DNA from: a virus
Direction: 5' to 3' (one strand)
Virus record (IMG/VR): IMGVR_UViG_3300008216_000072
Span: 1 to 24,634 of that record
DNA: 24,634 nucleotides
Shown: piece by piece, positions 8,290 to 24,634 of the stretch
Layout of the letters: every line of letters starts with the position of its first letter
Position numbering within the stretch: the stretch's first letter is position 1
Notes under the pieces: model-generated
Databases searched by the model: none
Told to the model about the DNA's origin: nothing
Seen by the model: only the letters and a program-made list of their open reading frames with translations
Position numbers and translations under genes: made by a program

Positions 8290-10719
8290 CTAGCCTCGTT
8301 GCTGCTGTTTCATAAGTTCACGCTCCTTGGCAGCGTTAATACGAGCTTGAACTATCTCTTCCTGGGATTGAATCCTGGCAGAACCAAGATTCACCGTATT
8401 TTGGGCCTTTTTCTGATCCAGAGCCAACCGTTCTTGGTCTATCTGGTTCTCTGCCGCGTCTCTTGCCGCCCTTATCTGTAAATCCTGTTCCTTCAATGCG
8501 ATAAGAGGATCCGGTTCCCCGCCGCCACTTATCTGCATACTCAGTGCCTTGACCTCTTGCATACCCTGAGCAACAAGTTGGGCCACTAAGCTTTCTATTT
8601 GCAAAGCTTGTTCTTCCGTTGGTGGCTGATCTCCCAGTTGCCCCCGCATTTCCATTATTACCTGCTCTTTTGCCTTAATAGATACATGCTCCATCACATG
8701 CTTTTGCAAAGACATGGTAACCGCAGGCATCTGGGCCACCATGGGAGAAGAACCAAATACAAGATGAGCCATGATATGTGCATCGTGGTTCTGTCCTTCA
8801 AAAACAACAAGTGGAACATTCTCTAAGGCTTCAGAATTTTCTGCCGCAGGATCCTTCGGCGTTGGGTCTCCCTGCTCTACAGGTTTCAGTATTGAATCAA
8901 CGTCCTTGATACCTATTGCCCGATACATCCTGCGATACGCTTCATACAGGTTATGAAGCTCCGGAGCAGACTGCGCGAGTTGCAACTCCGTTTGGGCAAG
9001 CGTGACACGTTGTGCCATTGAGAAGATATTCGGGTCGGAAACTGGAACAACATCAACCCTGTCATCAAAATCTTCCGCTTTAACAGTCCGCTCTGCACCG
9101 ACTACGTTGTAGGGATATTCGGGCGGAAGAGACTGTCCAAACACGTCTGACAGAAGATTAAACTCATCCTTCTGTGCATAATGCAGGCGCTTATGTATGG
9201 CGGACATGACTTTTGCGCCCTGCTCCAGCATTGCAATAGTTGTTCCTACTGCCGCCTGCTGGTTGCCGTCACCCACCTGCAAGTTTGAAACTGCTGCGAA
9301 CCTCTGGCCCGCTTCAACGCAAAACCCCATCAACTGATACAAAGTCTGATCGGCACCCTTGTACGGAAGAAGCATAAGAGAATCGCGGATGGCCCCTCCC
9401 GGTGCATCAACATCCCGGAATTCACCCGGAGACAGGGGCTCATCATCGTCCCGTATACGCAAACCACGGGCCTTGAATCCTGCCGGAAGATTAGCAAGAG
9501 TACCGGCATCTATAAGTTGACGAAGTGCGGCTGTCGCTGTGCGGCTCAAGCCGCCAATCATGTGTATCAGGCCAAGACCGTAGAATCCAAAACCGGGAAG
9601 AAATTTGAAATGTACAAAATACTGGTTCTTTCTACGGTTGGAATCGTCGGGATCATAGTTCCTTCGGACGCTTAAAAGCTTACTGTTGTTTTCTGATATC
9701 GTGACGACATACGGAAGCTTGATGCCCGTGGGCTCGCCGCCCTCGTCGGTGTCCTCGTATCCTTCCAAATCCAGATCTACGTGACATTCAAGAAGCGTTA
9801 CTTCCTGATCCAGGTGATTGGGGGATATTCCGGAGATCTCGTCCATCTCCTCACGGACCTGTGACGGATCCGACTGAGATGCTGTCACTTCTACGTCACG
9901 GTAAAAACCAGCAACCTGTTTTTTGCGTAGCTCGTTCTCACTTATCTGTATGATGTGCGTGACATTCTCCGCAGTCTCAAGATCCGTCGCCGTATACGGA
10001 ACAATCAACTGTTCGGCAGGAACAAATTTGCTTACCGCTCTTCCAAGGAATTCATCGTAATATACTTTTTTGAATGTAGAACCTGATAACGGTAAGTAAA
10101 ATAGCATCTGGTCAAATTCCGGCGTGTATTCTTTCATCACGCAGGTAATCTGATAATTCATAAAGTGGCGAACGCGCTCCGCCTGATCCTCTGCCTCTGG
10201 TGTTACCTTTCCTATTATTTCTGTTCTTACGGGACCACCCGATGGAAGAAGTTCTCCGAAAGCCTGCGCCTGAAACTGCGTTACGGCTTCCGCGAGTAGC
10301 GGATGCGTTACACCTGTTGCGCCCCTGAAGGGCTCAGATCTGTCCTCGTACTTGAACCCAAGAAGTTCAAGACCCGTCCGGTAGGTATCCTCCCAGTCCT
10401 TGCGACCATCCTTGTTCGCCTCATACTGGGCCATCAAGTCCGAAGAAATCCGGGATGAAGACGTGTCGGAAAGGCTTTCCGCCAAGTTATCATAGAAATC
10501 TCCAGTATCGGAAGAAGGTGCGCGGGGATCAAAATCGACAACAACGCCGCCATCGTCCTCCAGTTCGATATTAAGACCTGGAGCTTCTATAAGTGTGTCG
10601 TCCTTCACAGGTACCTCGGCGGCGGGGCCTTCCTCTAGTTCAACAGGAGGAATCGCATCCCGGCGCTCTACAAGGGAGGCCGTACCAAAATTACTTCTGG
10701 GGAGGGGGGTGCTAGCCAT
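8290..10719 (-). CDS. Portal protein, P22-like
   Basis: An 809-aa portal subunit; a ring of these forms the DNA channel at one capsid vertex and docks the terminase. The first ~85 residues are acidic and probably disordered. The core begins near SDLMAQYEANKDGRKDWEDTYRTGLELLG, followed by EDRSEPFRGATGVTHPLLAEAVTQFQAQAFGELLP, the conserved region that identifies this family, and FYLPLSGSTFKKVYYD. A helical part around NQQAAVGTTIAMLEQGAKVMSAIHKRLH is also typical. The C-terminus is a long Gln/Glu/Lys/Arg coiled coil, comparable to the barrel of the P22 portal. The start overlaps or abuts the upstream gene's stop, with GAGAAGG upstream. Confidence 0.88.
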   Translation of the reverse strand: MASTPLPRSNFGTASLVERRDAIPPVELEEGPAAEVPVKDDTLIEAPGLNIELEDDGGVVVDFDPRAPSSDTGDFYDNLAESLSDTSSSRISSDLMAQYEANKDGRKDWEDTYRTGLELLGFKYEDRSEPFRGATGVTHPLLAEAVTQFQAQAFGELLPSGGPVRTEIIGKVTPEAEDQAERVRHFMNYQITCVMKEYTPEFDQMLFYLPLSGSTFKKVYYDEFLGRAVSKFVPAEQLIVPYTATDLETAENVTHIIQISENELRKKQVAGFYRDVEVTASQSDPSQVREEMDEISGISPNHLDQEVTLLECHVDLDLEGYEDTDEGGEPTGIKLPYVVTISENNSKLLSVRRNYDPDDSNRRKNQYFVHFKFLPGFGFYGLGLIHMIGGLSRTATAALRQLIDAGTLANLPAGFKARGLRIRDDDEPLSPGEFRDVDAPGGAIRDSLMLLPYKGADQTLYQLMGFCVEAGQRFAAVSNLQVGDGNQQAAVGTTIAMLEQGAKVMSAIHKRLHYAQKDEFNLLSDVFGQSLPPEYPYNVVGAERTVKAEDFDDRVDVVPVSDPNIFSMAQRVTLAQTELQLAQSAPELHNLYEAYRRMYRAIGIKDVDSILKPVEQGDPTPKDPAAENSEALENVPLVVFEGQNHDAHIMAHLVFGSSPMVAQMPAVTMSLQKHVMEHVSIKAKEQVIMEMRGQLGDQPPTEEQALQIESLVAQLVAQGMQEVKALSMQISGGGEPDPLIALKEQDLQIRAARDAAENQIDQERLALDQKKAQNTVNLGSARIQSQEEIVQARINAAKERELMKQQQRG

Positions 10720-15378: not shown

Positions 15379-17652
15379 CTAGCCAATCATCCTTGCGTCT
15401 TCGTACAATGGCTTGTCTACAAAACCGCCGTGCGTAAATTTCTGGATACCTTTTCCGAGTAAATGCCTCCTCATTTTTGGAGTGATTTTCAACGACCAGA
15501 CCTTAGCGGTCGCCTTATTGATTGGGGAGTAGTATATCTCCGTCATGCCTGCCTTCACACCGAACTTCTTCCCAAACTTGTTGGCATAATTTTTAATCAT
15601 CACGTCATAAAACTTCCGCATACCTTTGGCTTCGTCTCCCGTTAAGCCATACCGCGCCACCTGCATATCTCCAGGTGTCCACGCTAAACTGTCTTTTCCT
15701 TCCTCTGCCGCCAGCCGCAGGGCACGTCTAAAAGCCAGTTCGTGCCACGTTTTCTTGAATGGCATATCGGGGACGGCACCCAACAGACTTGAGATTTGGC
15801 TATCGATTTCTCGAAGCGCGGCCCTTGTCTCGTCGTCAAATTTTCCTCGTTTGACTACTAACCTTGAATATTCGTCTTGTTCTACGGGGGTTAGCCCCAC
15901 TAAACTTTCACCCACCCGTTTGTCTGCTAGTTCTTTAAGACGAGGCAGCCAATCAGACATCCTTGCGTCTTCAGCCGCAGTATCCCGCTCCGCTAATATC
16001 TCGGCTCTTTGTTCTTTGAGCAGAGCAAGCCGCTCCGGGTCTTTATATCCAAAATTTTTAGGAACCAGTTCTTTCACCCCTTCTTTCGCGGCATCCCATG
16101 CTTTGCCAAACTCTCCTCCGATCAGGTGGGCAACTTCGTTCCTATCAATATCCTCATCATCATCTATAAAATCATCCAGAGTCATAATATTATTGGGAGT
16201 CAGCCCCTCGTCGACGTCGTATAGGAGCTGGGCCTCGTCGAAATATGCGTCGAGCATAAGCTTACCATGTAAAGGATCCGGATCAAAATTCTTGAGGAAC
16301 CGTGCAAGAGTTACCCTCTTAATTTCGGCTTTCCGCATGTCCCTGGCTCGCTGATGCGCGTCACCCTGAATTTCTTCAACAAACTTTACATCATTACCTG
16401 CAACCGTTTTTCTGTCATTTACACGCAGGTGAGCGAAATAGTTTTTGTCGGGAAAGTGACCGCCAACAAAATCCTCTCCAGCCGTCCTGGGGGGTAGCTG
16501 CATTAAAATTTCCTGGTAATTCTGGAGTCCTCGACCACGGCCCAATGTCTCCTCGCTAAATATGGTCTTATCTTCGGCACGTATCTTCCCATCCCTCACG
16601 GCATGTCTTTGAGCCATGATCTTGGCCTCTTCCAGAGTACGACCAAAGTAGCGACCTTCTGACCAGGGTAGTGGTGCATCAGAATCGGGGCCATAAACGC
16701 TATATCTGTTGGTGTTGGAGCCGCTGCTACGCAGCCTAGCCGATGATGGGTGTTTATAAATACGGTATCCAAATTCTGGATCAATAAGAGCCGCAACTGG
16801 ACCGCCGATAATTATGGGGCGCGTGACGAGGGATCCCCCATAAACGGACGCCTCGCTTACCGTTTTCGCTTCCAGAAGCCTTGCTTCCAGAGCGGGTCCA
16901 GATTCCTGGGGGTCCAGATTTGGCAGATTTTTCCAAGTCAGAGTCTTACCTTCCCCCCCACGGATAATATCCTTGATGCTAACCGGATTGGCGGCCAGGA
17001 TGTCCTGAACCTCCTGCTTGGAAACTTTTCCTCCCGTTTCGATCTTGTTCCTCAAGTATGGACCCAAGCCTCTATACTCTAGTTCCGCCTCTTTCACGCC
17101 CTCGGTCTTTCTAAGCGTAGTTAATACCTGGGAGGGGTCAGCCGCGTAGCGCCCCCATGACACCTTATCGACAGCGTCGGCAAGTGCTGATCCGTATACA
17201 GGGGGAAGCTGGTACTTCCCGGATTGTGGATCCCATGGCATCAGCGTCGTAATGCCGCCTTCGGGCACGTCTTCTTTAGCAAGACCAAAGAGGTCCTGGA
17301 AATATCCGATACCAGCGCGGGCAAGAGGATGCGGTTCGCCCAGTTGCCCCTGCTGTTTCAGCCAATCCAGAGTTGGTCCCACGATCTGCCAGTCTTTTGG
17401 CAGCAGATCGTAGCCCTGCTGTGCCAGATTAACAAAATTGAGGAACGATCTTATGTTGGGAGGTACTGGGAGCCCCGCAATGCCACCAGGACGACGTACT
17501 ACCAGACTTCTGCCCCGACCCTTCGGACCCTTCTTCTGAATCGCTCCCCCTGGAACTCCTACAGGTGGGGCCGGTTCGTCCAACTGAGGTATTTCAGGTA
17601 GATCTGCCCTCTGCTTGGCAAAGTCTTTGCTAGGGTCGAACTCGTCAGCCAT
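15379..17652 (-). CDS. Large internal or ejection protein candidate with C-terminal tag
   Basis: A 757-aa protein directly after terL, whose stop it overlaps (GGAG is 5 bases before the ATG). The N-terminal ~70 residues are proline- and lysine-rich. A large module at about 370-730 has motifs I recall from very large phage and mobile-element polyproteins: NYQEILMQLP, NYFAHLRVNDR, VKFVEEIQGDAHQRARDM, and PFKKTWHELAFRRALRLAAEEGKDSLAWTPGDMQVARY. These look like one conserved domain of unknown activity, usually split by insertions, here with a helical insertion at about 460-630. It ends in GGFVDKPLYEDARMIG, nearly the same as the 593-aa protein. The position between terL and portal fits a protein packaged inside the head. 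No catalytic residues can be assigned. Confidence 0.75.
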   Translation of the reverse strand: MADEFDPSKDFAKQRADLPEIPQLDEPAPPVGVPGGAIQKKGPKGRGRSLVVRRPGGIAGLPVPPNIRSFLNFVNLAQQGYDLLPKDWQIVGPTLDWLKQQGQLGEPHPLARAGIGYFQDLFGLAKEDVPEGGITTLMPWDPQSGKYQLPPVYGSALADAVDKVSWGRYAADPSQVLTTLRKTEGVKEAELEYRGLGPYLRNKIETGGKVSKQEVQDILAANPVSIKDIIRGGEGKTLTWKNLPNLDPQESGPALEARLLEAKTVSEASVYGGSLVTRPIIIGGPVAALIDPEFGYRIYKHPSSARLRSSGSNTNRYSVYGPDSDAPLPWSEGRYFGRTLEEAKIMAQRHAVRDGKIRAEDKTIFSEETLGRGRGLQNYQEILMQLPPRTAGEDFVGGHFPDKNYFAHLRVNDRKTVAGNDVKFVEEIQGDAHQRARDMRKAEIKRVTLARFLKNFDPDPLHGKLMLDAYFDEAQLLYDVDEGLTPNNIMTLDDFIDDDEDIDRNEVAHLIGGEFGKAWDAAKEGVKELVPKNFGYKDPERLALLKEQRAEILAERDTAAEDARMSDWLPRLKELADKRVGESLVGLTPVEQDEYSRLVVKRGKFDDETRAALREIDSQISSLLGAVPDMPFKKTWHELAFRRALRLAAEEGKDSLAWTPGDMQVARYGLTGDEAKGMRKFYDVMIKNYANKFGKKFGVKAGMTEIYYSPINKATAKVWSLKITPKMRRHLLGKGIQKFTHGGFVDKPLYEDARMIG
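15404..15430 (-). repeat. 27-bp identical repeat, copy 2 (C-terminal tag code)
   Basis: Identical to 13619-13645. It encodes the same GGFVDKPLY core, here at the end of the 757-aa protein. The flanking bases (CCTTGC on the outer side, TAGGCCATG after the stop) are also similar, which fits recent gene conversion or reuse of a gene-end cassette. Confidence 0.9.
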
Positions 17653-19108
17653 AATAACTCCGCAGGTGGGTAGACGGCTCGCTGTCCACCCAATCGTCGC
17701 TCGGTAATTGTACGAAGTTACCCTGACGGTACCGCATCAGGGCCTGCGTGGTGCTGTCTACAAGATCATCATACTCGCCATGCGGAAATGCCGCACATTC
17801 GTCGATAACCTCGTCAGCCCATCGTTCGTCCGGTGCCCATATCATCCCGCTCTCAAATAGCGGCGAAACGGAGTGCACCCGCGTTAACTTATCGTTTCCC
17901 TTACTTGGTGTAAAGTTTACAACAGGTATTCCAACCTGCCGTAATTCCTGCGTCAGCGGCAGCCCCGACGCCTTGGCCTCCACGATTACCGTCTCAGGCT
18001 CCCAGAACTTGTACTGCTCTAACGCCTCCACCTTCAATTCCGGAAAATCCCACCGTCCCTTCTTCGCGCCCAACAAAATCAGATTAGCTGGTCCATCCTG
18101 CTTTGGATAAAATACCCCCCACGTCGTAATGGCCGAGTAATCCGCAGTCTCCCGCTTGCTGAAAGCCGTATCGTAACTCTGTATTACATACGCAAGCTGG
18201 GGAACCTCCTCCTCTTTCCACCTGTTCCACCACTCCTTCTTGATAATCGCACCCTCTTCCGAAGTCGGATTCTGCTGCCACTGGGCATTCCACTTGGAAA
18301 CGGACAACGAAGCACGGACCCCCTCCAACTCCTCCTTGCTCCAGAACTCAGGCCAACAGGAATTCCCGCTCGGCATCAAGGCAGGAAACTCGATCACCTC
18401 CCACCGGTCCGCATGCTCATCATAACTCTGCGCCTTCAAAACCTTTGCAGTCAAATCCTTCAACGACCACCGCGTCATAACAATAACAATGGCACCCCCA
18501 GGCTGGAGCCTCTGCCGGGGACCCGACGTATACCACTCATACGCATGCTCCATCGCCGTCTCGGAAAGCGCGTCCTGCTCGGAATGCGGATCGTCAATAA
18601 TCAACAAATCAGCACCGCGCCCGGTTATCGCACCACCGACACCCGCTGCAAAATACTCCCCACCTTGGTTCGTGGACCACCGCCCGGCAGCCTTGCTGTC
18701 CGCCTGCAAGGACACATTGTCGAATATCGACGTGTACTCGCCCGTATCCAAAAGGTTGCGAACCTTCCTTCCAAAATTTACGGCTAACTCTGCGGTGTGC
18801 GTGGTCTGGATGATCTTGGTCTTCGGAGCACGGCCAATGACCCATGAGGGAAAGAGATAGCTTGCAAACTCAGATTTCGTATGGCGGGGAGGCATGTTGA
18901 TGATGAGCCTCTTGTTCTTGCCGTTTGCAATATCCTCAAATTTCTTTGCAATCATTCTGTGGTGGGCCCCTGCAATAAATTCAGGCCACACTTTGCGGAC
19001 GTACTTTAAGAAGTCTTCCCTACACCCCTCTACTTCTGACATCTGCGCCAAGCGCAATTCCAGCTTCAGTCTCCGCTCCTCGATCTCTGGTGTCTCTGTT
19101 CTTAGCAT
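17645..19108 (-). CDS. terL: Terminase large subunit
   Basis: A 487-aa packaging motor that cuts concatemeric DNA and pumps it through the portal. ATPase motifs: Walker A-like MPPRHTKSE at about residues 72-80 (PPRHxKS is the form seen in this family), Walker B LLIIDDP at 169-174 followed by HSE, and the coupling MTRW at 211-214. The nuclease domain starts at AYVIQSYDTAFSKRETADYSA (D313), continues through ETVIVEAKASG and closes with GEYDDLVDSTTQAL. I place the start at MLRTETPEIEERRLKLE because the 29 codons before it read through the parS palindrome (FHVKH), and AGGG lies upstream. The small subunit is about 3.7 kb upstream rather than adjacent. Confidence 0.92.
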   Translation of the reverse strand: MLRTETPEIEERRLKLELRLAQMSEVEGCREDFLKYVRKVWPEFIAGAHHRMIAKKFEDIANGKNKRLIINMPPRHTKSEFASYLFPSWVIGRAPKTKIIQTTHTAELAVNFGRKVRNLLDTGEYTSIFDNVSLQADSKAAGRWSTNQGGEYFAAGVGGAITGRGADLLIIDDPHSEQDALSETAMEHAYEWYTSGPRQRLQPGGAIVIVMTRWSLKDLTAKVLKAQSYDEHADRWEVIEFPALMPSGNSCWPEFWSKEELEGVRASLSVSKWNAQWQQNPTSEEGAIIKKEWWNRWKEEEVPQLAYVIQSYDTAFSKRETADYSAITTWGVFYPKQDGPANLILLGAKKGRWDFPELKVEALEQYKFWEPETVIVEAKASGLPLTQELRQVGIPVVNFTPSKGNDKLTRVHSVSPLFESGMIWAPDERWADEVIDECAAFPHGEYDDLVDSTTQALMRYRQGNFVQLPSDDWVDSEPSTHLRSYYG

Positions 19109-19127
19109 GAGGGTCCCTGAGTGATGA

Positions 19128-19143
19128 TGTTTCACGTGAAACA
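19128..19143. promoter_or_regulatory. parS: Exact parS-type centromere site
   Basis: The sequence TGTTTCACGTGAAACA is a perfect 16-bp palindrome and equals the widely conserved bacterial chromosomal parS consensus bound by ParB, as known in Caulobacter and (as TGTTNCACGTGAAACA) in Bacillus. It lies 20 bases upstream of the chosen terL start, on the edge of the gene-free repeat region. With even base composition a given 16-mer is expected about 6 per million windows of this size, so chance is unlikely. No parA or parB is in the window, so host ParB is the likeliest partner. Confidence 0.85.
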
Positions 19144-19338
19144 CTAATATGGGGGTGTTTGGAAGGCAATTCCCGTACCAGTTAATCCATATCATTTTTT
19201 ACCGGATTATTTGAGAGAAACAAGGCCGAAGCCATCACTTGCGCCGCCGATGGGCCAGAATCGCGGGCCGGGTGGCGTAACCCGTTGATTCTGTGGCCAG
19301 ATTCAGCCCTGGGGCCCCCTGGCGCTTGGAGCGCGGAG

Positions 19339-19471
19339 CGCGGAGCCAGGACAGCGGAGCCAGGGCAGCGGAGCCAGGGCAGCGGAGCCAGGACCAGGGC
19401 AGCGGAGCCAGGACCAGGGCAGCGGAGCCAGGACCAGGGCAGCGGAGCCAGGACAGCGGAGCCAGGGCAGC
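19339..19471. repeat. Tandem array A (AGCGGAGCCAGGRC units)
   Basis: Starting from a degenerate copy at 19339-19352, seven clean units follow at 19353, 19367, 19381, 19401, 19421, 19441 and 19455. Four are 14 bp (AGCGGAGCCAGGAC or AGCGGAGCCAGGGC) and three in the middle are 20 bp because CCAGGG is added. The 14- and 20-bp forms alternate like a slipped or unequally recombined array. Confidence 0.9.
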
Positions 19472-19562
19472 GGCGAGCGACATCGAAGGCGAGCGACATC
19501 GAAGGCGAGCGACATCGAAGCCAGGGCAGCGGCGAGCGACATCGAAGGCGAGCGACGTCGAA
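19472..19562. repeat. Tandem array B (GGCGAGCGACATCGAA units)
   Basis: Five 16-bp units at 19472, 19488, 19504, 19531 and 19547; the last has one change (GACGTC for GACATC). Between units three and four, 11 bp (GCCAGGGCAGC) matches array A, so the two arrays have been shuffled together. Two 16-bp units are about three helical turns. Confidence 0.9.
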
Positions 19563-19612
19563 GGCTCAATCAGGCTCAATCAGGCTCAATCAGGCTCAAT
19601 CAGGCTCAATCA
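19563..19612. repeat. Tandem array C (GGCTCAATCA x5)
   Basis: Five identical 10-bp units directly abutting array B. A period of about one helical turn places all copies on one face of the DNA, as in iterons bound by an initiator or partition protein. Confidence 0.92.
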
Positions 19613-19802
19613 CCCAAAGTCGACCGCCCAGGATGCTTCCAGACGCACGAAGAGCACCTGACATGGGTTGCGGTGCCCGACAAAACTACAGGCGCTGGCG
19701 GGCGTCATGGCGCATGGGCCAAGCGCCACGGGCCCCGCTGTGAGTTTCATGCGCCACGGGGAAGGCGGCCCCCTGAGTGATTCACTATGACAAACGCTGG
19801 CG

Positions 19803-19833
19803 AAAAAAAGGGCCCGCCGGTATGGCGGGCCCT
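19803..19833 (-). terminator. Intrinsic terminator after the 72-aa gene
   Basis: A 10-bp GC stem (19809-19818 with 19824-19833, loop GGTAT) is followed on the minus strand by seven or eight T. It would end leftward transcription of the island before the repeat region, meaning terL needs its own promoter. Confidence 0.88.
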
Positions 19834-19853
19834 GGTTGCAAGAATGCGAACGG

Positions 19854-22529: not shown

Positions 22530-23000
22530 CTGAAAAAACGCTTCCCAGTCGTACGGTTCCTGCAAAACAGCCAGAGGCGATACGGCTGCAAGACCGTCCA
22601 TACGCAAATCAACAGCAGTGGAGCCAGCAAAAACACTAATGTCCAGAGAAGAATCGCGCACAACAATAAAACAATTTGCGCGGGAATGGCGACTAAGCCA
22701 CGCAACCTGATGGGGTGAGAGATCGACCTTACCAATTCGGCCCTTTGTGACTTTAAGTTCGAGGAAACTAAACGCACCGTTTTCTGCACACAGTAAGACG
22801 TCGGGGACTCCAGGGATTGCCCAGCTTTCGAGTCTGGTCGTTTCAATTTTCCGGCCCGTCGTCTTTAGGCCGTCGCTTATCAGACGCCACAGTCCCGCTT
22901 CCCGATTCTTTAGCGCCACCCTCGGAATCTTGTTCTTCGACTTCTGTGGGCGTGACGTCGATAGTTTTTTCAAAGCCTTCTCGAATCCGGGCGAGCTCAA
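22509..23000 (-). CDS. VRR-NUC / PD-(D/E)xK nuclease
   Basis: A 163-aa (or shorter) protein. The fold core is clear: REAGLWRLISDGL (conserved Glu, residue 34), ESWAIPGVPDVLLCAENGAFSFLELK, with P66-D67 and E81-L82-K83 as the metal and catalytic residues, and a following LSPHQVAWL. These are the hallmarks of the VRR-NUC family of structure-specific endonucleases, often Holliday-junction or flap nucleases. It lies after terS, which is consistent with processing branched replication products before packaging. The start is uncertain: a TTG at 23000 with AGGTGG upstream, or a GTG at 22919. Both overlap terS, the first by 158 bases. Confidence 0.85.
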   Translation of the reverse strand: MSSPGFEKALKKLSTSRPQKSKNKIPRVALKNREAGLWRLISDGLKTTGRKIETTRLESWAIPGVPDVLLCAENGAFSFLELKVTKGRIGKVDLSPHQVAWLSRHSRANCFIVVRDSSLDISVFAGSTAVDLRMDGLAAVSPLAVLQEPYDWEAFFQLTSPTG

Positions 23001-23454
23001 TTTCCACCTGCTCTCTACTCATTTGGTCAATGGACCCTGTCCTAATTTCAGATTTGCTCACATATATATCGCCCTGAGCTTGGCCCCGCCTGTACTCGGC
23101 CTGTACCGCCGCCGAGAATGCGCCGTTATCGAGCGCCAGATCACGAATCTTTTGCAAGTCACGGACATGACGCTTGTAGCCAACCTTGTACTGCTCATCG
23201 AGTTCGTCCCGGTAGCGCGTAATTTCCGCAACCACATGCGGGCAATGGCGGGGACTGGTAAGTTCAAAGGCGCGAGTGTGGGCCGATGCGGCAGGGTAGC
23301 CCGCTCGAATCGCGGCCTCCCTCAGCGTAATAAGCCCATCGTTGCTTACGAGTTCTTTAACAAACTTTTCCTGACGCCGCGTCAGCTTCCTGGTCGGCCC
23401 ACGAATATCGGAGTTTTTCCGGGGAATCCTTACCGGAAGCTTTGATTTTGCCAA
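22843..23454 (-). CDS. terS: Terminase small subunit
   Basis: A 203-aa protein with the small-terminase pattern: an N-terminal helix-turn-helix region, LTRRQEKFVKELVSNDGLITLREAAIRAGYPAASAHTRAFELTSPRHCPHVVAEITRYRDELDEQYK, then helices (VRDLQKIRDLALDNGAFSAAVQAEYRRGQAQGDIY) for ring formation, and an acidic, low-complexity tail (EVEEQDSEGGAKESGSG). It binds phage DNA at the packaging start and hands it to TerL. The start is set to the TTG at 23454 (TTG-GCA-AAA), because GGAGGG lies 5-6 bases before it; the longer frame adds four codons that contain that site. It is unusual that terL is 3.7 kb away. Confidence 0.85.
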   Translation of the reverse strand: MAKSKLPVRIPRKNSDIRGPTRKLTRRQEKFVKELVSNDGLITLREAAIRAGYPAASAHTRAFELTSPRHCPHVVAEITRYRDELDEQYKVGYKRHVRDLQKIRDLALDNGAFSAAVQAEYRRGQAQGDIYVSKSEIRTGSIDQMSREQVEIELARIREGFEKTIDVTPTEVEEQDSEGGAKESGSGTVASDKRRPKDDGPEN

Positions 23455-23493
23455 AATGCCCTCCAAAAGGCTCTTCTTCCTTTGATATCAACG

Positions 23494-23804
23494 CTGTCCC
23501 GCCACTGTCCCACCGGCTCGCTTTAAGAAACACCTGTAAACTGACGCGGAAAAGCCCTATATCAGTTAGTCTAAGTTAAAATACCACGGGCCGGGCCGTA
23601 AACGAACTAATCCTAACCGGTATAGCGTCCCGTGAGCAACATATGGGGGGATCGCCTGCGGGACAAGAAAAGCCTAAAAATCCTATATAGGATGTGGGTT
23701 ATTGGAACCGTCCCGCCTGTCCCACCAATCCCACCATGAATTGTAGATTTTTTTTTTTTTTGAATTTACAGAATCCGTTCTATAGTGGGACGCCGGGACG
23801 GCGG
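23494..23804. repeat. Paired GTCCC(G/A)CC elements
   Basis: CTGTCCCGCCA-CTGTCCCACC at 23494-23514; CGTCCCGCC-TGTCCCACC-AATCCCACC at 23709-23735; and an inverted pair GTGGGAC-GCC-GGGAC at 23785-23799. The same GTCCC motif thus occurs in three small clusters, two direct and one inverted, in an otherwise AT-moderate noncoding stretch. Confidence 0.7.
23680..23693. promoter_or_regulatory. 14-bp palindrome ATCCTATATAGGAT
   Basis: A perfect palindrome between the upstream small gene and terS, with a TATATAGG core that could double as a -10 box. It shares half-sites with the dyad at 22490-22505, so both could bind the same repressor. Confidence 0.55.
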
Positions 23805-23846
23805 TTCGTCTGGCTGCTTGGAAGAACCGTGGGCCGTGGTTGTTGT

Positions 23847-24038
23847 CTAGTCTCGTTGTCGAAAGATGTGTCGTCGGTTAGCCAATTCTTGCTTGTGTCG
23901 TCGGTTAGCCAATTCTTGCTTGGCTGATTTTAGTTTCTGCTCTTCGGTCGGTGTGTCGGTGCCGGAATGCTCAAAAGCATCGACCATCATTTGTAGCTCC
24001 CAGTTCGTGCGCCACCGGAAATCATAGTAGGTGGTCAT
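23847..24038 (-). CDS. Small 63-aa early protein with a duplicated 9-residue end
   Basis: Starts MTTYYDFRWRTNWELQMMVDAFEHSGTDTPTEEQKLK; the start is chosen because GGGGGAGAG lies 5 bases before the ATG, which follows the previous stop by one base. The end carries KQELANRRH twice in a row, from a 27-bp in-frame DNA duplication, giving a charged helical tail. The family is not recognised. It is early in the likely transcript from the 24521 promoter, a common place for small phage proteins that act on the host. Confidence 0.7.
   Translation of the reverse strand: MTTYYDFRWRTNWELQMMVDAFEHSGTDTPTEEQKLKSAKQELANRRHKQELANRRHIFRQRD
23867..23920 (-). repeat. 27-bp perfect tandem duplication in a gene
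   Basis: Two identical 27-bp copies (23867-23893 and 23894-23920). In frame they code for KQELANRRH twice. The perfect identity suggests it arose recently by slippage. Confidence 0.9.
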
Positions 24039-24039
24039 G

Positions 24040-24342
24040 TCACTCTCCCCCGTCACGGACGGGCTGTATTCTGCCCTCCTCGATGTTTTCGATGACTCCA
24101 CCGGCGCTGCACGACTTCAAGAAGGCCCGAGCAGCGGCACAAATGGGCGCAGACTCTGGCACGAAGCCCGTGTTGTCTGCGTAGGATTTTGCGCGGCTAC
24201 GGATGTCACTCCAAGCGTCTCGCTCGGTTTCGAGGTCAAGCCAGTAGTGCCGCGACGTTGTTTTGACAATCGTCGGTGTCTCCGTTTCGCACTCTTCGCA
24301 ATCGTCGTAAAATCGTTTTGGAATACGTACTGCTAAAGTCAT
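24040..24342 (-). CDS. Hypothetical 100-aa early protein
   Basis: Begins MTLAVRIPKRFYDDCEECETETPTIVKTTSRHYWLDLETERDAWSDIRSRAKSYADNTGFVPE and ends with ICAAARAFLKSCSAGGV. I recall a pattern of small proteins with V.IP.RF..D......P...V..T..HY...L......L...A..YAD......L..SAR...., found in phages and in bacteria, whose role is not known; 'RIPKRFYDDC' and 'AKSYAD' match it. The start is placed at the ATG preceded by GGGAG. An alternative frame overlapping its beginning is listed in the findings. The stop sits one base before the next start. Confidence 0.75.
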   Translation of the reverse strand: MTLAVRIPKRFYDDCEECETETPTIVKTTSRHYWLDLETERDAWSDIRSRAKSYADNTGFVPESAPICAAARAFLKSCSAGGVIENIEEGRIQPVRDGGE

Positions 24343-24520
24343 GGTAGTTCTCCCTCTTCCGGTTAGGTTTTGCCATGAGTTGACTCCCATAACAGGTTGG
24401 AGGCCCACGGATCATCCAAACAACCAACTGTTCACGATGTCAAAGAACGGTGGCGCGGTTCCCGGCGGGGGTTAGAGAGGTGGCCTCTAGTCCACTTCGC
24501 CCTGCTCGGCGGCCTCTTTC

Positions 24521-24550
24521 ATTATAAGAATTTTCCCATATAATTGTGGC
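24521..24550 (-). promoter_or_regulatory. Probable early promoter (TATAAT)
   Basis: On the minus strand GCCACA (24550-24545), 18 bases, then a perfect TATAAT (24526-24521). The weak -35 is part of the GTGGCGA iteron, so binding there could switch the promoter on or off. It would drive the leftward early genes at 24342. Confidence 0.6.
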
Positions 24551-24586
24551 GAAATTGTGGCGAAAATAAGGTCATTTTGTGGCAAA
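24542..24586. repeat. GTGGCGA iterons
   Basis: Two abutting 11-bp copies of AATTGTGGCGA (24542-24552, 24553-24563) and a looser third (TTTTGTGGCAAA, 24575-24586). The spacing of about one helical turn is typical of initiator-binding iterons. Confidence 0.7.
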
Positions 24587-24597
24587 CGCCATTTTTC

Positions 24598-24634
24598 TGT
24601 GGATAACTCTAAAGTTATCCACAAGTTATCCACA
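24598..24634. promoter_or_regulatory. Three perfect DnaA boxes (possible replication origin)
   Basis: TTATCCACA occurs exactly three times: once on the minus strand (24598-24606) and twice on the plus strand (24615-24623, 24626-24634, 11 bases apart, one helical turn). The first two form a 10-bp inverted repeat. This is the host DnaA consensus. Together with the iterons it suggests an origin, or a DnaA-controlled promoter. The window ends inside it. Confidence 0.8.

Follow-up and report, generated by a model that had tools for sequence, protein, structure and literature searches.

The window analyzed here, a stretch of 24,634 nt, contains a complete parS site of the bacterial chromosomal type in front of the gene for the large terminase subunit (terL), and the same site was found in a large part of the related viral loci. 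On sequence grounds, it is likely that this is an orphan chromosomal-type parS, which is kept so that the ParB protein of the host loads on phage DNA, and binding of host ParB to the phage site is very likely. The use of host ParB is proposed because the site is conserved in comparison with its flanks, occurs at varied places, shows T/C variation and is accompanied by no detected parA or parB gene. The window corresponds to a virus record of IMG/VR and represents a 24.6-kb fragment beside relatives of 51–62 kb.

parS Site and Its Surroundings

The site matches the 16-bp parS consensus exactly (16/16) and is a perfect 16-bp palindrome, as stated in the earlier note on this DNA, and it was the only match with up to three mismatches in the whole window. 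Dinucleotide shuffles at the same threshold gave 0.10 matches on average, and 10 of the 100 shuffles contained one. The chance of an exact match per window, which the earlier note had put at about 6 in a million, was reproduced as 24,634 × 4^-16, i.e., ~6e-6. The coordinates of the site and of the neighboring features are given in Table 1.

Table 1. Features of the window related to the parS site.
Feature	Position	Strand	Remarks
parS	19128–19143	.	TGTTTCACGTGAAACA; kept in relatives
terL, large terminase subunit, 487 aa from ATG 19108	17645–19108	-	phrog_38, E 9e-112; PF17289
Conserved terL leader element	19146–19239	-	directly upstream of parS
Tandem repeat arrays	19340–19612	+	terL–DUF932 gap
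Terminase small subunit-like gene	22843–23466	-	phrog_51, E 4e-8; one edge of the parS-holding region in relatives
SU10-type portal gene	8290–10719	-	near the other edge of the parS-holding region

The location beside terL was also confirmed: parS is in the leader, 19 nt upstream of the terL start codon. The longest terL frame reaches ATG 19195, and parS would fall inside it. The start was assigned to ATG 19108 (M30) because most of the 80 relatives align only from residues 26–41 (the homology begins earlier in 15 of them and later in 2). A reading of parS as TerL-coding sequence was rejected, since the TerL homology mostly begins beyond the site. The leader element is common to the window clade and is also found in loci without parS (L131, L179, L183 and L184). 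In the locus L045, it lies beside parS but upstream of a terS-like gene instead of terL; therefore, the leader element and parS can sit together away from terL.

Genes for adaptor, major capsid, GroES, portal, TerL, DUF932, DUF7227 and small-terminase-like proteins were recognized in the window using PHROGs and Pfam. Gene-poor stretches include 19109–19853 and 23467–24634, and the second of them contradicts the description of the parS surroundings as the only large gene-free region. The tandem repeats are GC-rich, with units of 10, 14–20 and 16 bp. Three DnaA-box-like 9-mers (TTATCCACA/TGTGGATAA) are located at 24598–24634, at the gene-poor contig end. The window contains no tRNA and no Rfam match, so a known RNA element was rejected, and a sigma-70 promoter scan of the terL–DUF932 gap found nothing.

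Conservation among TerL Relatives

A TerL search of viral contigs gave 415 relatives, 80 of which were kept; their loci comprise 591,161 bases in total. The parS pattern TGTTNCACGTGNAACA was found in 53 of the 80 TerL-related viral loci, namely in 27/33 loci of the window clade and 26/47 others, and sites with one mismatch were present in four and three more loci, respectively. When 60 control palindromes were made by shuffling, with the composition unchanged, each was found in 0/80 loci, and the presence of parS is therefore not due to chance. The inner 14-mer GTTYCACGTGRAAC occurred in 58 loci (29/33 in the clade and 29/47 in the others), and its reversed control occurred in none of the 80. 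A census of perfect 16-bp palindromes across the same loci revealed parS in 37, TGTTCCACGTGGAACA in 9 and any other palindrome in no more than 2. When 44 whole records were scanned, 28 contained the pattern and none contained the reversed pattern.

The window clade includes the window and the loci L123–L154 (33 loci), of which 31 have a site with at most two mismatches and enough flanking sequence; 26 of these sequences are distinct. The site of the distinct sequences has 1.92 bits per column, versus 0.32 in 60 flanking columns, and is exact in 22 of them and carries one mismatch in 4. The earlier note had proposed a comparison of the site position among relatives, and in the window clade the exact and one-mismatch sites mostly lie at the same place; the refuting condition named there, relatives without the site at this position, therefore did not hold for the close clade. 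The TerL of the locus L122 is identical to that of the window, and this may be nearly the same phage.

The presence of parS among relatives is patchy. One locus of the window clade (L131) has no parS, and a half-site is damaged in two of the 33 (L124 and L127). No site was found in the nine loci of a low-GC subclade; other low-GC relatives (L014, L021, L023, L088 and L103) contain exact sites with unlike flanks. The degenerate positions 5 and 12 are occupied only by T/A or C/G, both in the phage records and in the sites of metagenome-assembled and single-cell genomes (MAGs and SAGs).

Position of the Site across Subclades

In a quick maximum-likelihood TerL tree (153 rows), the window was placed in a clade of 34 rows with an SH-aLRT of 100. 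The site of the window clade mostly starts 30–40 bp before the terL ATG; the exceptions are L144, L146, L147 and L152, where it lies 63–286 bp before the ATG. In the sister set (61 rows), subclades differ in that the site precedes terL, falls in a frame after terL or lies 1.4–3.6 kb past terL, and some groups, e.g., the low-GC one, have no site. Parsimony on the tree gave 13 changes of presence and absence, which is an overcount, as truncated contigs and one-mismatch sites were scored as absent. The tie of parS to the terL leader is thus clade-specific, and a terL operator at a fixed place was rejected because other subclades have the site elsewhere, in different gaps or within nearby genes.

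Among the 146 exact sites of the 120 loci found with parS as the query (parS-first loci), 48 are located in open frames ≥600 nt long, with both strands counted. The VSRET phase accounts for 38 of them and the FHVKH/Q phase for 10; not all of the frames are genes. The third reading phase of parS holds a stop, so an in-frame site is impossible there. Sites in long frames on the terL strand encode V(S/P)R(E/G)T. When 22 such sites were compared, their frames fell into five groups that blastp did not connect at 1e-5. The 14 frames of the largest group, which mainly represent the gene following terL, share the place of the site mostly by descent, and the frames of L121 and L067, which represent two groups, resemble each other in the residues flanking the site and may be related. 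The sites inside genes therefore outnumber the independent gains. In the largest group, residues swap between S and P and between E and G, and the palindrome is unchanged; its preservation while the residues vary points to selection on DNA.

Distance from terL in Longer Records

In the four longest site-bearing records that were mapped (G071, G061, G082 and G040), all 10 sites are located within 7.5 kb of the terL start. Every site was nearest to the terS–g290 module in 36 of the 41 parS-first loci that matched the references at ≥40% identity and 80 bits (55 loci had any match), where the module accounts for 21–31% of the named genomes, its bounds were set after the site mapping had been seen, and the references cover ~50 of the 60 kb of each named genome. 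The five exceptions are L044, L057, L062, L064 and L068. In L064, a 44-kb record, two sites lie 3.3–3.4 kb past polA, not by terL. The 41-kb record G055 also has two sites, one of which was not mapped to a gene. In some members, two or three sites are clustered over a few kb, a feature shared with chromosomal parS. Longer records contain 1–3 sites each, and most site counts are minima because 26 of the 28 site-bearing records are shorter than 30 kb.

When 82 larger ORFs close to parS, taken from 77 of 82 loci classed as non-clade, were compared with PHROGs, terL families were listed most often, as counted with no random-position control. The location of the sites near terL may partly reflect gaps or loose linkers that tolerate a 16-mer. 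Of the four parS-bearing relatives of 51–62 kb, three encode PolA, primase and the PolA-side helicase; in the fourth (G040, 50.9 kb), HepA helicase alone was seen of this set. In four records, DnaA-box-like sites were not consistently near parS, and GC skew was dropped as an origin marker because gene strand likely drives the skew.

Partition and Integration Genes

No ParA, ParB or integrase families were found among the 20 window proteins compared with PHROGs and the 20 compared with Pfam, in agreement with the earlier observation that parA and parB are missing here. ParB_N (PF02195) was detected in 0/44 records of the phage group (10/14 control genomes), ParA-type AAA_31 in 0/50 records (14/14) and tyrosine integrase (PF00589) in 0/50 records (14/14), most of the records being fragments. 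The annotation of the named relatives, over ~50 kb of each, names no partition gene or tyrosine integrase. A phage-encoded ParABS system was rejected on the basis of the ParB and ParA counts in these records, which, being mostly fragments, give no proof for each genome. The search for a parB elsewhere was thus negative for the records of the group, with the window genome represented by its 24.6-kb fragment. Carriage of the phage as a plasmid, which had been suggested as well, received no positive support, with tyrosine integrase, ParA and ParB absent from the searched records, mostly fragments.

Among 50 parS-bearing viral records at large, ParB_N was found in four, in three of them over the Pfam cut-off. 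The loci concerned (L285, L286, L287 and L289) place ParB_N over the cut-off on three parS-bearing viral contigs of 49–111 kb, and these contigs possibly carry self-contained partition systems.

parS across Viral Contigs

Exact parS was found in at least 120 stretches of IMG/VR viral contigs, and four control palindromes gave 1, 29, 4 and 33 stretches. This exceeds the largest control by a factor of at least 3.6, and the true enrichment is probably far higher. The A- and G-variants of the site occurred in 4 and 29 stretches, respectively, compared with at least 120. A rough recapture estimate (judged by contig names, 2 of the 37 exact loci found with TerL as the query were among the 120) suggests ~2,000 parS-bearing contigs, with a wide error. 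Homologues of 15 window proteins, some of them distant, are encoded by 44 of the 120 parS-first loci.

A second phage group was also observed (L017, L044, L049, L053, L075 and L098), with a TerL ~26–28% identical to that of the window and as many as five exact parS in a stretch of ~1 kb. The five exact sites of L017 and of L044 are packed into ~0.8–0.9 kb and lie no more than 1.4 kb upstream of terL. One 23-kb viral contig (L333 and L336) contains an array of several copies of the A-variant TGTTACACGTGTAACA.

Named Relatives and Bacterial Contigs

The window phage was attributed to HTVC023P/DSL-LC04-like podoviruses. Its TerL is 58–66% identical to those of HTVC023P, HTVC027P and 023Pt_psg01, and, as in the HTVC023P-type podoviruses, GroES and capsid genes follow terL in a like order; the portal gene is shared as well. 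The GC content differs (~51% in the window versus a mean of 42% in this type), and the HTVC023P-type genome (~58.8 kb) includes PolA, primase and helicase, whereas the window is a fragment without that half. None of the four named relatives contains the pattern TGTTNCACGTGNAACA. HTVC027P, which was cultured on Pelagibacter, has CGTTTCACGTGAAACA at record position 16412, 4.1 kb before terL, a 15/16 match with the inner 14-mer intact; HTVC023P has only TGTTACACATGTAACA, in which the CACGTG center is absent. In the main text of the paper on HTVC023P-type phages, the words parS and ParB do not occur (PMC9599517).

The TerL scan of genome contigs yielded contigs binned into MAGs as well as single-cell genomes of SAR11; the ones included in the tree fell outside the window clade and so point to no host for it. 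The pattern was absent from all 80 TerL relatives located on bacterial genome contigs (50 at 51–72% identity and 30 more distant). Among the 50 closest, the 14-mer was found in one (L256), and L213 and L225 have other one-mismatch forms. At the genome level, 13 of 27 MAGs and single-cell genomes with a TerL relative contained the parS pattern, on contigs that are not necessarily chromosomal, and one contained the reversed control. The 13 include a SAR11 single-cell genome (G091), in which contig C2 carries an exact site. On a 1.1-Mb MAG chromosome called Dehalococcoidia (L250, CP070693.1), a partial TerL with 62% identity to that of the window was observed, which may represent either integration or misassembly.

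Possible Role of the Site

Chromosomal ParB, a CTP-dependent DNA clamp, binds this palindrome specifically and spreads outward. At the phage parS, host ParB would load and spread over the terS–terL–portal region, and through ParB, host ParA and SMC could be engaged. Recruitment of SMC by ParB–parS complexes is described in PMC7022226. As for the purpose, local action on the terminase and late region, either as a copy-number-sensitive brake on late transcription or as organization of DNA for packaging, can be put forward tentatively. That phage genomes are positioned or partitioned along with the origin domain of the host is a somewhat more doubtful purpose, titration of ParB from the host is an unlikely one, and any other purpose is more unlikely still. 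A local role is somewhat likelier than titration or partition because the sites lie close to where the structural genes begin, at a distance from terL that spreading ParB could cover. According to PMC5815017, Caulobacter ParB in E. coli spreads up to ~2 kb from a single parS, and the distance in B. subtilis is ~10 kb. In the account given in PMC7022226, P. aeruginosa ParB represses genes behind the intergenic parS3 and parS4, while in B. subtilis without Spo0J, the expression of genes adjoining the sites is unchanged, and the latter weakens the transcriptional reading.

It can also be supposed, with considerable doubt, that virulent phages repeatedly evolved parS in the terminase region and that host ParB serves as a genome-copy counter for the late genes. 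ParB clamps would silence or organize these genes at few copies, and replication would dilute ParB and release them. Such a counter would exemplify a habit common among viruses, because viral contigs are enriched in exact parS and, in the 50 records checked, ParB was mostly absent.

Several alternatives to these proposals were considered. A temporarily episomal phage inherited via host ParB and ParA, for which parS would be a partition site, is rather unlikely. It is reported that parS on an element without parAB is stabilized in trans (SGI1/IncC, PMC10954446) and that one oriC-proximal parS is enough for segregation of the P. aeruginosa chromosome (PMC4368675); however, the searched records contain no tyrosine integrase or partition gene, none is named in the annotation of the relatives, and the closeness of the site to terL is left unexplained. 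Position would also be irrelevant for a decoy, in which many phage copies of parS strip ParB (with ParA, SMC and division regulators) from the host origin and stop chromosome segregation and division, yet most of the mapped members have their sites close to the terminase gene. Few sites per genome (1–3 in longer records, most counts being minima) also argue against a decoy. This explanation appears improbable, even though a plasmid with two parS sites was reported as lethal to Caulobacter (PMC5815017), the parS mimics of SGI1 destabilize the IncC helper plasmid (PMC10954446) and small arrays are present in the second phage group (five exact sites in L017 and L044).

That the site is an operator of a non-ParB phage or host regulator behind a late promoter, similar to parS by convergence, is very improbable. 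In the window clade, the site does adjoin the conserved leader element, but the match is full over all 16 positions, the degenerate position is T or C as in bacterial genomes, sites also occur inside genes and on unrelated phages, and fewer stretches of viral contigs contain the A- and G-variants. An origin by chance, or through the hitch-hiking of a protein motif (VSRET/FHVKH), is hardly credible. It would agree with the 48 of 146 exact sites in long open frames and with the largest frame group, which shares the place of the site mostly by descent; however, the shuffled controls were absent from all 80 loci, the sites of the window clade are in the leader, and the peptide varies where the DNA palindrome is constant. 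Chance was rejected using the shuffled-palindrome controls, the palindrome census and the conservation of the site versus its flanks. Loading of host ParB at a retained parS is the preferred explanation. The earlier proposal of host-ParB use is accordingly retained in part: the sequences support a putatively functional parS, while the tie to the terL leader is limited to the window clade.

Comparison with Known Systems

The phage site is the same 16-bp palindrome, with the same T/C variation, as parS of the chromosomal ParABS systems, the published consensus of which is the parS sequence listed in Table 1 (PMC10197239). It differs from chromosomal parS in that no parA or parB was detected and that it is located near terL rather than oriC. 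SGI1 is the nearest precedent found, by analogy: like the phage, it is a mobile element with a foreign parS and no ParB of its own (for the phage, ParB in 0/44 records, mostly fragments). The parS-like sites of SGI1 use the ParABS of IncC with a plasmid-coded ParB, and binding was reported (PMC10954446); the putative partner of the phage site is the ParB of the host chromosome, and its carrier looks virulent.

A ParABS system of their own, with parA and parB, is brought by certain phage-plasmids and extrachromosomal prophages, e.g., those of mycobacteriophages. These phages also have parS on phage DNA, whereas ParB and ParA were found here in 0/44 and 0/50 records, respectively. Other papers describe an engineered lambda-parS that serves as a label (PMC13190303), a survey of ParB-fold proteins (PMC12704722) and the reverse case, a phage with ParB in which no ParA was found (PMC10286716). 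Among the open-access papers listed, a set that excludes preprints and the majority of subscription journals, no report of chromosomal parS on phages without parAB was found.

The 16-bp parS is a simple mark for finding such viruses. HTVC027P, whose site keeps the inner 14-mer, and Pelagibacter HTCC1062 form a cultured pair. If host ParB loads on the phage DNA, a core segregation protein would serve marine viruses of a widespread group as a host factor, and infection would offer a natural test of the roles of ParB–parS beyond chromosome segregation.
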